From positions 62,001-126,000 of the forward strand of contig JABXII010000016.1 in assembly GCA_013373175.1 (NCBI GenBank): a DNA stretch of 64,000 bases. The letters run 5' to 3'. Positions 32,100 to 42,825 of the stretch are shown piece by piece. Under the pieces are notes generated by a model. That model ran no database searches. It had not been told where the DNA came from and saw nothing but the letters and a program-made list of their open reading frames with translations. Within the stretch, counting starts at the first letter, position 1. Every line of letters starts with the position of its first letter. This stretch comes from Campylobacteraceae bacterium. Its GTDB lineage: Bacteria; Campylobacterota; Campylobacteria; Campylobacterales; Arcobacteraceae. The translations under genes and the position numbers were made by a program.

Positions 32100-32381
32100 A
32101 TGACTTTTATTGAATTTAAAAAACTTTTACTGGATGCAGAACTTACAATACCAAAATTTACAGCTTTAATTAAAGTTAGTGAAAAAAACATTCAATCTTA
32201 TAAGAAAAAAGAGCAAGTTCCAAATGCAATTGCCGCAGTAGCAGCATGTTTTGCAAAAATGAATCAAGAGGGAATGGATTATAAAACTTTAATCAATGAC
32301 CTTGATTTAATTAAAAAAGAGAAAAAAGGTGCAGGTTTTTCTTCAAAAAAGAAAGATAAAAAAAATAAAGAAAACGATTAA
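32100..32381 (+). CDS. Small HTH-like protein with basic tail
   Basis: 93 aa. Residues about 1-70 are helical and read like a XRE-type helix-turn-helix (FKKLLLDAELTIPKFTALIK, then SEKNIQSYKKKEQVPNAIA), as in proteins that choose between recognition helices by 'VSEKNIQSYKK'. The last 20 residues are a lysine-rich tail (KKKDKKNKEND) that would bind nucleic acid or acidic partners. It has its own promoter and ribosome site (AGGATG) and precedes the DUF423 gene. No specific function can be named. Confidence 0.7.
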   Translation: MTFIEFKKLLLDAELTIPKFTALIKVSEKNIQSYKKKEQVPNAIAAVAACFAKMNQEGMDYKTLINDLDLIKKEKKGAGFSSKKKDKKNKEND

Positions 32382-32422: not shown

Positions 32423-32812
32423 ATGACAATAAATAAAAATGTTAGATTTTTTCTAACGGTTTCTTCTATTATGATGGCACTTGCCATTGCAATTGGAGCT
32501 TTTGGAGCTCATGGTCTAAAAGCAGTTGTTTCAGCACAGTTATTAGTAACTTATAATACTGGTGTTGAATATCATTTCTATAATACCTTGGGGCTTTTTG
32601 CAGCAACATTTATGATGTATTTAAAGCCTGATTCAAAAGGTGTTAAAATAGCAGCTTGGCTTATTTTAATAGGAATGATAATCTTTTCATTTTCATTATA
32701 TGCATTAGTTTTATTAAACATGCCAATTTTAGGTGCAATTACTCCTATTGGGGGAACACTTCTAATTATTGCATGGATTACTTTAGCAATTTCATTTTAC
32801 AAGGAAAAGTAA
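32423..32812 (+). CDS. DUF423-family membrane protein (YgdD-like)
   Basis: 129-aa inner-membrane protein with four hydrophobic segments and the family motif AIGAFGAHGLK at about 21-31, then YNTGVEYHFYNTLGL and a C-terminal PIGGTLLIIAW. The family is widespread and its function is unknown. A small dyad (TTCCCAAA/TTTGGGAA, 32398-32416) lies just upstream and contains the GGGAA ribosome site in its right arm. It heads a tight group with the channel gene (3-base gap) and the Rossmann protein (4-base gap). Confidence 0.88.
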   Translation: MTINKNVRFFLTVSSIMMALAIAIGAFGAHGLKAVVSAQLLVTYNTGVEYHFYNTLGLFAATFMMYLKPDSKGVKIAAWLILIGMIIFSFSLYALVLLNMPILGAITPIGGTLLIIAWITLAISFYKEK

Positions 32813-32815
32813 TAG

Positions 32816-33616
32816 ATGAACATAATTGAGAGAATTGAGCACATAAGAGATGCAAGATGGTTTTCTAACCTTACAACTTTTATTATTTTAGCGTATGCTT
32901 CAGTTTTAGGATTTAAAACAATTGATGAAGTAGAGACTAATTATGCGATATTTTTACAGTTTGCAGATATTTTTGTAACTATCTATTTTATATTTGAAAT
33001 AGCTATTAAAATGGCGGCAGAAAAAAAGTTTATTAACTTTTTTAAATCAGGATGGAATCTTTTTGATTTTACAATCGTTGTAATTACTCTTTTACCACTT
33101 GAACAATCAGGTTTTGCTGCAATTGCAAGAACACTAAGAGTATTTAGAGTTTTAAGATTATTTACAGCACGTCCAGAATTAAAAGCTATTATTGATATGT
33201 TGATTAAAGCTATTCCTTCAATTATTGATATTGTGATTTTGATGTTTATAATTTTCTATATTTATGCAATTATAGGAAATTTCTATTTTCAAGATTTACC
33301 ATCAGGATTATGGAAAGACTTCTTAGTATCAATGCTTACATTGTTTAGGGTTTTAACCTTTGAAGACTGGACAGATGTTATGTATGAAGCTATGGAAGTA
33401 TATCCAATGGCTTGGATTTACTTTGTATCTTTTGTAATTATTGCAGCCTTTGTATTCTTTAATCTTTTTGTTGCAGTTATTATTGGTGAAATGCAAAAAA
33501 TTCAAGAAGCAGACTTCCATGAGGAAGCACATGAAGATAGTAAAAAATTAGATATTTTATTAGAAGAGATTAAAACATTAAGACAAGAGGTTCAAGACCT
33601 AAAGAAGAAAGAGTAA
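32816..33616 (+). CDS. NavBac-type six-TM voltage-gated cation channel with acidic filter
   Basis: 266-aa single-repeat voltage-gated channel, assembling as a tetramer. The voltage-sensor helix S4 has arginines every third residue (Arg105, 108, 111, 114). The pore runs from about 140 to 225, and the selectivity filter is TFEDWTD at 181-187. Bacterial sodium channels such as NaChBac or NavAb have TLESWSM; here there are acidic residues at the Glu position, the next position and the last, as in calcium-selective filters. S6 ends in FFNLFVAVIIGEMQ, and a C-terminal coiled coil (about 244-266) should hold the tetramer. Operon with DUF423 and a Rossmann protein. Confidence 0.9.
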   Translation: MNIIERIEHIRDARWFSNLTTFIILAYASVLGFKTIDEVETNYAIFLQFADIFVTIYFIFEIAIKMAAEKKFINFFKSGWNLFDFTIVVITLLPLEQSGFAAIARTLRVFRVLRLFTARPELKAIIDMLIKAIPSIIDIVILMFIIFYIYAIIGNFYFQDLPSGLWKDFLVSMLTLFRVLTFEDWTDVMYEAMEVYPMAWIYFVSFVIIAAFVFFNLFVAVIIGEMQKIQEADFHEEAHEDSKKLDILLEEIKTLRQEVQDLKKKE

Positions 33617-33620
33617 AACA

Positions 33621-34391
33621 ATGAAGAAAACAGTTTCAATATTAGGAGCAGGGTGGCTAGGTCATCCTTTAGCTCTAAGTTTAAAAGAAAACTATGAGGT
33701 AAAAGTTTCTGTTAGAATAGAAGAGAAAAAAGAAACTTTTGAAAATGAAGGTTTAAAAGCATATGTTTTAAATGAAACTTCTTATGAAAGCTTAGATAAT
33801 CTTTTAGATACAAACTATCTTTTTATAAATTTTCCTCCCTCTAAGTTTGAAGATTTTAAAGCTTTTTTAGAAAAAATATATTCCCACAAAAATATAAAAA
33901 ACATAGAAAAAATCATATTTATTAGTTCAACTTCTATCTATCCAGATGAAGAAAAAACTTTTAGTGAAGATGAAGTATTTACAAATGCTAAATCCCAAAA
34001 GATTTATGATATAGAAAAGTTAATTGAAGATAAAACACATCTTATTTTTAGATGTGCAGGACTTATGGGAGCTAATAGAGTTTCAGGGAAATATTTTGCT
34101 GGAAAAGAGCTTGATAGTGAAGATGTAAAAGTAAACTATGTTCATCTTGATGATGTAATAGGTGCAACTAAATTTGCTCTTTTAAATGATTTAGAAGGAA
34201 TATACAATCTTTGTAGCAAGGAACATCCAACTAGAAAAGAGATATATTTTAAAAATGCTTTAAGATTTGGATTTGATAAACCTATTTTTAAAAATAAAAA
34301 AGAGTATAAACAAAGACTGATTGATGGAAGTAAAATTGAAAGAGAAGGATTTAGATATAAGTATCCAAACCCTTTAGAATATGAGTATTAA
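33621..34391 (+). CDS. NAD(P)-dependent epimerase/dehydratase-like protein (YeeZ type)
   Basis: 256-aa Rossmann-fold protein of the extended SDR group. The nucleotide-binding loop is ILGAGWLGHPLA (about 7-18) in place of the usual GxxGxxG, as in YeeZ-like proteins. Serine-rich IIFISSTSIYP (about 98-108) corresponds to the catalytic Ser/Tyr region, followed by the conserved IFRCAGLMG. Substrate unknown. Its last four bases overlap the convergent upp stop, so the two genes share a 3' end. Confidence 0.82.
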   Translation: MKKTVSILGAGWLGHPLALSLKENYEVKVSVRIEEKKETFENEGLKAYVLNETSYESLDNLLDTNYLFINFPPSKFEDFKAFLEKIYSHKNIKNIEKIIFISSTSIYPDEEKTFSEDEVFTNAKSQKIYDIEKLIEDKTHLIFRCAGLMGANRVSGKYFAGKELDSEDVKVNYVHLDDVIGATKFALLNDLEGIYNLCSKEHPTRKEIYFKNALRFGFDKPIFKNKKEYKQRLIDGSKIEREGFRYKYPNPLEYEY

Positions 34392-42090: not shown

Positions 42091-42825
42091 ATGAAGTTAT
42101 CTCAAGAATTATATGTAATCTTTGAAAATCCATCAAAACATAAATATGGATACTATATTCAGTTTTTAATCCATCTAAATATTCTAGTTAGTATAGTAGT
42201 GATGTTTTTAGAAACAGAAAAGTCTTTAAGTGAGTATCTTGAACTTTTTAGAACAATCAATATGATTAATATATTTTTATTTACTATTGAATATCTTTTA
42301 AGAATTTATTCTAAACCTAGAAATAAGATAAAGTTTATGCTTACACCTTTAATGATTATTGATTTAGTGGTACTTATTCCTTTTTATCTATCTTTTTTAA
42401 ATATTGATTTAGGCTTCTTAAGAGGATTAAGAATACTTAGAATATTCAAGCTTTTTAGATTGGCTAAGTTTCATGAGTTTGATAAAATGATTATGGACAT
42501 TTTAAGTGAAAAAAAAGAGGAACTTTTTTATATTTTTGTGGTTTTATCTATCTTACTTTTTACAATAACACCTTTAGTTTATTTTGCTGAATCAAAAGTA
42601 CAACCAGAAGTTTTTTCAAGTATGTCAACTACACTTTGGTGGGCTGTAATAACTTTTACTACAGTAGGTTATGGGGATATGTATCCTATTACTACCTTAG
42701 GAAGAATTTTAACAACTATAGTTAGTATATTAGGAATCGCATTTTATGCAATACCTGGAAGTATTTTTACAAGTAGTTTACTAGATAAAATCCATCAAAG
42801 ACGAAATAAAAAGAGAAGGCGTTAA
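42091..42825 (+). CDS. Voltage-gated potassium channel, 6 TM
   Basis: 244-aa channel subunit with six hydrophobic helices. The S4 region RGLRILRIFKLFRLAKF (about 111-127) has regularly spaced basic residues. The pore carries the K+ filter TTVGYGD at about 190-196, preceded by the pore helix LWWAVITF. S6 ends in a glycine-hinge segment and a basic C-terminal tail (HQRRNKKRRR). No RCK or cNMP domain. Starts at the base after the Nudix stop. It is followed by a bidirectional hairpin. Confidence 0.94.
   Translation: MKLSQELYVIFENPSKHKYGYYIQFLIHLNILVSIVVMFLETEKSLSEYLELFRTINMINIFLFTIEYLLRIYSKPRNKIKFMLTPLMIIDLVVLIPFYLSFLNIDLGFLRGLRILRIFKLFRLAKFHEFDKMIMDILSEKKEELFYIFVVLSILLFTITPLVYFAESKVQPEVFSSMSTTLWWAVITFTTVGYGDMYPITTLGRILTTIVSILGIAFYAIPGSIFTSSLLDKIHQRRNKKRRR

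Follow-up and report, generated by a model that had tools for sequence, protein, structure and literature searches.

A probable ancestor-like voltage-gated channel with an acidic filter in Arcobacteraceae, and apparent exchange of the pore segment among its relatives

The window, that is, the whole stretch of 64,000 nt that was analysed, contains a gene for a single-domain voltage-gated cation channel, closely flanked by genes of the same orientation. The genes and the parts of the channel are as follows (positions in the window, strand, evidence):

32100..32381, +, gene of a 93-aa protein without Pfam match, upstream of the channel and part of a local synteny block (Pfam search, locus comparison)
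32423..32812, +, gene of a DUF423 membrane protein, 3 bp upstream of the channel gene; a conserved neighbour in close relatives only (Pfam, locus comparison)
32816..33616, +, gene of the single-domain voltage-gated cation channel, 266 aa (ORF, Pfam Ion_trans, AlphaFold2 model, Z of 19.6 to NavAb)
33128..33157, +, S4 segment, R105 to R114, with arginine at every third residue, four in all (sequence, alignment of 45)
33347..33349, +, R178 in pore helix 1, three residues N-terminal of the filter, where canonical BacNavs have Gln (alignment of relatives)
33356..33376, +, selectivity filter T181-F-E-D-W-T-D187 (sequence; identical in all 51 family members read)
33368..33415, +, W185 to W200 in pore helix 2, a spacing of 15 versus 16 in NavAb-type channels and NaChBac (sequence comparison)
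33410..33610, +, S6 and long C-terminal helix, presumably forming neck and coiled coil (single helix in the model)
33621..34391, +, gene of a Rossmann-like protein, 4 bp downstream and missing beside some close relatives (weak Epimerase match, 23.3 bits versus a cut-off of 20.9)

The channel ORF is complete, with 266 codons and an ATG start, and its product matches Pfam Ion_trans with an E-value of 1.5e-44. All four S4 arginines (R105, R108, R111 and R114) show no variation across an alignment of 45 sequences, which comprises the window channel and 44 of 80 retained relative loci and which was also the input for the AlphaFold2 model; D51, E61 and D84 are likewise invariant and are, going by work on NaChBac, presumably the acids of the voltage sensor. 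The model (mean pLDDT 82.7, pTM 0.62) has six helices, forming a voltage sensor, two pore helices and one S6/C-terminal helix (199-265). Among solved structures NavAb matches it best (Z 19.6, 227 residues, rmsd 3.5); NaChBac (Z 19.3, 224 residues, rmsd 2.8), CavAb (Z 18.8) and further entries for NavAb and CavAb differ from this by no more than the tie margin. The structural marks of the BacNav superfamily, namely six transmembrane helices, the S4 arginines, a re-entrant pore with T-x-E/D-x-W and a C-terminal helix, were all found; the full NavBac architecture with four S4 arginines claimed in the initial annotation is therefore confirmed by ORF, Ion_trans match, predicted fold and the arginines themselves, and the filter residues Glu183, Asp184 and Asp187 had been read correctly. 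Its statement that NavAb and NaChBac both have TLESWSM holds for NavAb but not for NaChBac, whose filter is TLESWAS. In sequence, the window channel reaches about 150 bits at most against single-domain channels of known structure (among the 60 of 139 solved sequences listed); a NavAb-type gene of Arcobacteraceae reaches about 470 bits against NavAb.

The gaps of 3 bp and 4 bp to the adjoining genes fit a single transcript, and the block of hpt, the 93-aa protein, DUF423, the channel, where present the Rossmann-like gene, and upp is largely kept in close relatives. When the 80 retained loci were compared (several of them are one gene read from two collections), DUF423 lay next to the channel in all 55 loci with at least 77% identity, three of which print as "down" owing to an over-long ORF start, and the Rossmann-like gene did so in 41 of these 55. 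No DUF423 gene was found in the fetched flanks, some of them short, of the 25 loci at 60–75% identity, and the flanks fetched for more distant relatives showed neither gene. Because DUF423 adjoins all the close loci and was found at none of the distant ones, its pattern reads as local synteny, and the operon was dropped as a clue to channel function. A promoter scan was uninformative (17 found versus a mean of 17.7 in shuffled sequence, no excess). The host genome (2.76 Mb, 38 contigs) holds three Ion_trans matches: the window channel; a potassium-type channel with the pore motif TVGYGD at 42091-42825 (+), about 8.5 kb downstream; and a match within a 528-residue frame on another contig. A search of that genome with the window channel revealed no NavAb-type gene. 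Three NhaA matches are present; an NQR Na+ pump was considered and rejected, the sole NqrA match falling below the cut-off.

The channel had been described as rare, which is not borne out. Its type occurs in 51 of the 104 Arcobacteraceae genomes searched, at 67–100% identity, and the filter reads TFEDWTD in all 51 copies, or in 53 of 53 distinct proteins once two from another family of the order are added; the window's own genus carries it in 16 of 16 genomes, genus g2 in 2 of 31, and the nearest named relatives are from Arcobacter and Halarcobacter. A NavAb-like type (32–40% identity to the window channel) was found in 39 of the 104 genomes, one further genome having a fragment only; its filters, counted over family and phylum, are TLESWSM in 60 cases and TGESWSG in one (n = 61). 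Beyond the family, a scan of contigs gave at least 595 pattern matches, at least 580 of them relatives. The 80 loci retained from it belong mostly to Campylobacterota and Gammaproteobacteria, and filter counts from them are biased because TFEDWTD was one of the two search patterns. Whole-protein searches (E ≤0.001) of one class (321 genomes) and one phylum (249 genomes) gave 91 and 93 genomes with a match, respectively, although some of these matches are weak and likely to other ion channels.

A phylogeny with NavAb and NaChBac had been proposed as a check. The tree was calculated by a quick method from 92 chosen rows with the filter columns left out and without CavMr or NavPp rows; SH-aLRT support was used and long branches were flagged. 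The NavAb-like rows, NaChBac and 4bgn fall on one side of a branch with a support of 93 (not starred), and the window channel on the other. It is nested, within a Campylobacterota clade (support 99), in a TFEDWTD-rich clade (support 99) that takes in 42 of the 43 TFEDWTD rows as well as two TLEDWTD rows. A second clade (support 98) consists of 15 of the 18 TLEDWTD rows, one TFEDWTD row and one TLESWTS row; row L287 is weakly placed. Halomonadaceae rows lie inside the same TFEDWTD-rich clade as the window channel, and a channel of Halomonas elongata has been classified as an AnclNav (PMC7041947). The position outside the NavAb-like and Bacillus groups and a filter one residue off that of the predicted ancestor, TLE(D/S)WTD, suggest that the window channel is probably an "ancestor-like" BacNav (AnclNav), its closeness to NavPp being drawn from the filter and from the published grouping. 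The canonical NavAb-like marks, read off relatives as TLESW, Gln at position -3 and a Trp-Trp spacing of 16, are replaced by TFEDW, Arg and 15, and where native Cav channels of the CavMr type have Gly at filter position 4 there is Asp184.

In a survey of 407 distinct channel proteins, mostly best matches and whole families rather than a random sample, all 238 proteins with (F/L)EDWTD have Arg at -3, and 236 of them have a Trp 15 residues after the filter Trp; proteins with TLESWSM have Gln at -3 in 85 of 85 and a spacing of 16 in 84 of 85 cases, and NaChBac likewise has Gln and 16. In BLAST alignments the one-residue gap falls on the residue following the filter Trp or beside it, the exact place being uncertain, and D187 is aligned with a Gly instead of position 7. 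Human Cav3 repeat I (E-G-W-V-D-I-M-Y) aligns gap-free along the filter and the first part of pore helix 2, one residue being inserted further on. As the post-filter stretch lacks one residue compared with NavAb-type channels and NaChBac, D187 is not simply the counterpart of Asp7 in CavAb; this, together with Glu instead of Asp at position 3, renders unsafe the original comparison with CavAb, which had assumed acidic residues at equivalent positions.

The window channel may best be explained as a homotetrameric, depolarisation-activated channel of the AnclNav type that modestly prefers Na+ and is blocked by Ca2+ from outside, a reading to which we assign a probability of roughly 0.55. Four subunits would be held together by the C-terminal helix; upon depolarisation S4 would move outward and S6 would open; the rings of E183, D184 and D187 would admit Na+ with modest preference, as in NavPp, and would also bind external Ca2+ at millimolar level, block outweighing permeation as measured for NavPp. 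Na+ would enter the cell on depolarisation and be exported by the three NhaA-type antiporters, with external Ca2+ acting as a brake. The full voltage sensor, the pore with its filter, the distinct pore-helix signature and the strict conservation of the filter were observed; the explanation is supported by fold and sequence, by the position in the tree, by a filter one residue from TLEDWTD, by the result with NavAb L176F (below) and by the three NhaA matches. It should probably be regarded as a sodium channel, rather than as a rare calcium channel, because the measured channel with the most similar pore, NavPp (TLEDWTD), passes Na+ and is blocked by Ca2+ (PMC7041947), with a threefold preference for Na+ over Ca2+ (PMC7041941). 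Against it stands the dependence of filter selectivity on the scaffold: the NavPp filter put into CavMr (native filter TLEGWVD, PCa/PNa 218) results in a PCa/PNa of 13.8 with little discrimination among monovalents, and certain mutants of NavAb and NaChBac are called Ca2+-selective (PMC7041947). The same chimera, along with CavMr G4D (PCa/PNa 7.7, permeant to K+ and Cs+; PMC7041947) and the NaChBac mutants LEDWAS and LEDWAD, which PMC8002053 describes as non-selective, would be in keeping with a weakly selective channel for both Na+ and Ca2+ (PCa/PNa roughly 2–15), the mixed current of which would include a Ca2+ signal; native NavPp, Na+-preferring and Ca2+-blocked with nearly the same filter, makes this doubtful.

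A strongly Ca2+-selective channel, as suggested initially, would agree with three acidic residues per subunit and with the resemblance of W-T-D-V-M-Y to W-V-D-I-M-Y of human Cav3 repeat I. In a canonical scaffold such charges can favour Ca2+, since NavAb-TLEDWSD and NaChBac-TLEDWAD are called Ca2+-selective mutants (PMC7041947), although PMC8002053 calls NaChBac LEDWAD non-selective and states that charge counts no longer predict selectivity. A review holds that Asp at position 4 favours Ca2+ and reports that this residue alone (NavAb mutant TLEDWSM) raises the permeability of Ca2+ over Na+ about 100-fold (PMC10120453). However, in CavMr and NavPp it was Gly, not Asp, at position 4 that determined high Ca2+ selectivity, and NavPp remained Ca2+-impermeable with two such filters, being still Ca2+-blocked as TLEDWSD and giving no inward current with divalents as TLEDWAD (PMC7041947); moreover, position 3 is Glu where CavAb has Asp, and the post-filter length differs. 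As NavPp, with almost the same filter, prefers Na+, a calcium channel by charge count is not the main reading, and strong Ca2+ selectivity appears improbable. What stands of the proposed calcium- or mixed-divalent channel is a channel of the BacNav type whose filter is acidic by nature and resembles that of Cav channels, and which is of use, as had been argued, for studying filter evolution; its Ca2+ permeability is doubtful. Regarding the Phe at position 2, NavAb L176F was without Ca2+ block, and Phe is said to occur there in some BacNavs and AnclNavs (PMC10349818). A further point against the preferred reading is that the AnclNavs of Halomonas elongata and Teredinibacter turnerae, the filters of which are described as similar to that of NavPp, gave no current (PMC7041947). 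Neither TFEDWTD nor FEDWTD appeared in the body text of the papers searched.

Of the 273 proteins with Arg at -3 (rows with Gln there do not enter this count), 271 have either both filter aspartates, at positions 4 and 7, or neither of them: both positions are Asp in 238, neither in 33 (TFESWTS in 32, TLESWTS in one), and in two (TFDDWNN) position 4 only. Without the pattern-seeded loci the numbers are 187, 32 and 2 (n = 221). As nearly all 32 TFESWTS proteins come from one family, protein counts overstate events; starred branches require two or more changes for TFESWTS, and TLESWTS is nested within the clade of TLEDWTD rows. L288 (Gln at -3, filter TFDNWAH), a member of the TFEDWTD-rich clade, has lost both aspartates. 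Ancestor-like scaffolds with both Asp replaced by Ser are found at loci L202, L329, L314, L407, L408, L410-L428 and L444-L452; in the two TFDDWNN proteins (L406, L409), also with an ancestor-like scaffold, Asp is at positions 3 and 4 and not at 7.

A further pattern was found in the family of the L167 genome (Aidingimonas lacisalsi), which we take to be Halomonadaceae. Full-length matches occur in 71 of its 151 genomes, and all 71 were read: 42 have TFESWAT and 29 TFEDWTD. Among 73 distinct proteins (42 TFESWAT, 31 TFEDWTD) the filter type is without exception linked to Gln or Arg before the filter, to the extra post-filter residue and to further pore-helix residues. The tree calculated from the 53 cassette columns, a small number given the many rows, separates the types once, with a support of 98; that of the remaining columns needs 11 type changes, starred branches forcing at least three of them, and these remaining columns reject a single origin of TFESWAT (AU p 5e-67, group and cassette borders having been chosen after the pattern was seen). 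With only the filter columns removed, a 95-row set including three serine-type rows from outside the family forces at least six changes. Synonymous differences between unlike pairs are higher inside the cassette than outside, most clearly in closer pairs, and are about equal in like pairs; with rising divergence, the mean fractions inside and outside for unlike pairs are 0.29/0.14 (1 pair), 0.55/0.26 (3 pairs), 0.61/0.38 (12 pairs) and 0.60/0.52 (20 pairs), the pairs not being independent because they share branches. As synonymous differences, too, are raised inside the cassette, convergent point mutation is disfavoured. Thus, a pore cassette of about 50 codons appears to have been exchanged between TFEDWTD and TFESWAT forms in Halomonadaceae, for which recombination would be the simplest cause. 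The pattern is found at L331-L398, L246, L255 and L211, the closest pairs being L382/L380, with TFEDWTD and TFESWAT in nearly identical bodies, and L340/L336. The TFESWAT cassette has its best identity to ancestor-like pores (75%, versus 60% to canonical ones), yet its Gln, length and Pro are those of the canonical ones. The papers listed in a literature search on channels and gene transfer contained nothing on pore exchange.

Some other channels noticed may be of interest in their own right. L302 (genome G673) has Gly at position 4 of the filter TLEGWSE in a canonical scaffold and is, judged by the glycine rule of CavMr, a candidate for a natural channel selective for Ca2+; L123 (Nonomuraea gerenzanensis, NZ_LT559118.1) is an actinobacterial channel with the filter TGDDWGN. 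Genomes G732, G769, G790 and G877 each have two adjacent BacNav-like matches on a single contig, possibly tandem or heteromeric pairs. On Roseobacter plasmids (L122, L125) a NavAb-like gene directly precedes a putative sheath-protein gene, presumably of a type VI secretion system, and on plasmid pVa1 of Vibrio alfacsensis (L120) the channel match is in two pieces without an annotated gene and looks broken.

Taken together, the data incline us, by a narrow balance, to regard the acidic ancestor-like pore as an exchangeable module: the aspartates of E-D-W-T-D would be a coupled pair; in Halomonadaceae the segment of pore helix 1, filter and pore helix 2 would have been swapped repeatedly by recombination between TFEDWTD and a TFESWAT form with marks of canonical BacNavs; and the window channel, its filter unchanged in the 51 Arcobacteraceae copies, would represent the frozen, unswapped state. 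The channel itself belongs to a known and widespread group; the joint retention or loss of the aspartates and the apparent pore cassette are more novel. Natural pore swaps in Halomonadaceae would amount to ready-made chimeras, two pores in nearly identical bodies, with which the shares of filter and scaffold in selectivity can be tested.

Among known channels, NavPp of Plesiocystis pacifica, an AnclNav from another phylum compared here by filter only, is likewise single-domain and voltage-gated and differs in having Leu instead of Phe at position 2. CavMr of Meiothermus ruber, also an AnclNav, shares the single-domain form and a filter ending in Asp, but its Gly4 and Val6, reported to be necessary for Ca2+ selectivity, are absent from the window channel. 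The engineered, man-made CavAb is similarly acidic at positions 3, 4 and 7, although with Asp at position 3 and on the NavAb scaffold. NaChBac of Bacillus halodurans is identical at 91 of 261 aligned positions and differs in its filter and post-filter spacing. NavAb of Arcobacter butzleri, which we take to belong to the Arcobacteraceae as does the window channel, has the same fold, but TLESWSM, Gln before the filter and one residue more after it; a NavAb-type relative, L045, is 35% identical to the window channel. The model for Na+ selectivity is thus from the very same family, in which 23 of the 104 genomes carry both channel types, and this pair lets one lineage show how a Ca2+-like acidic filter can serve Na+.
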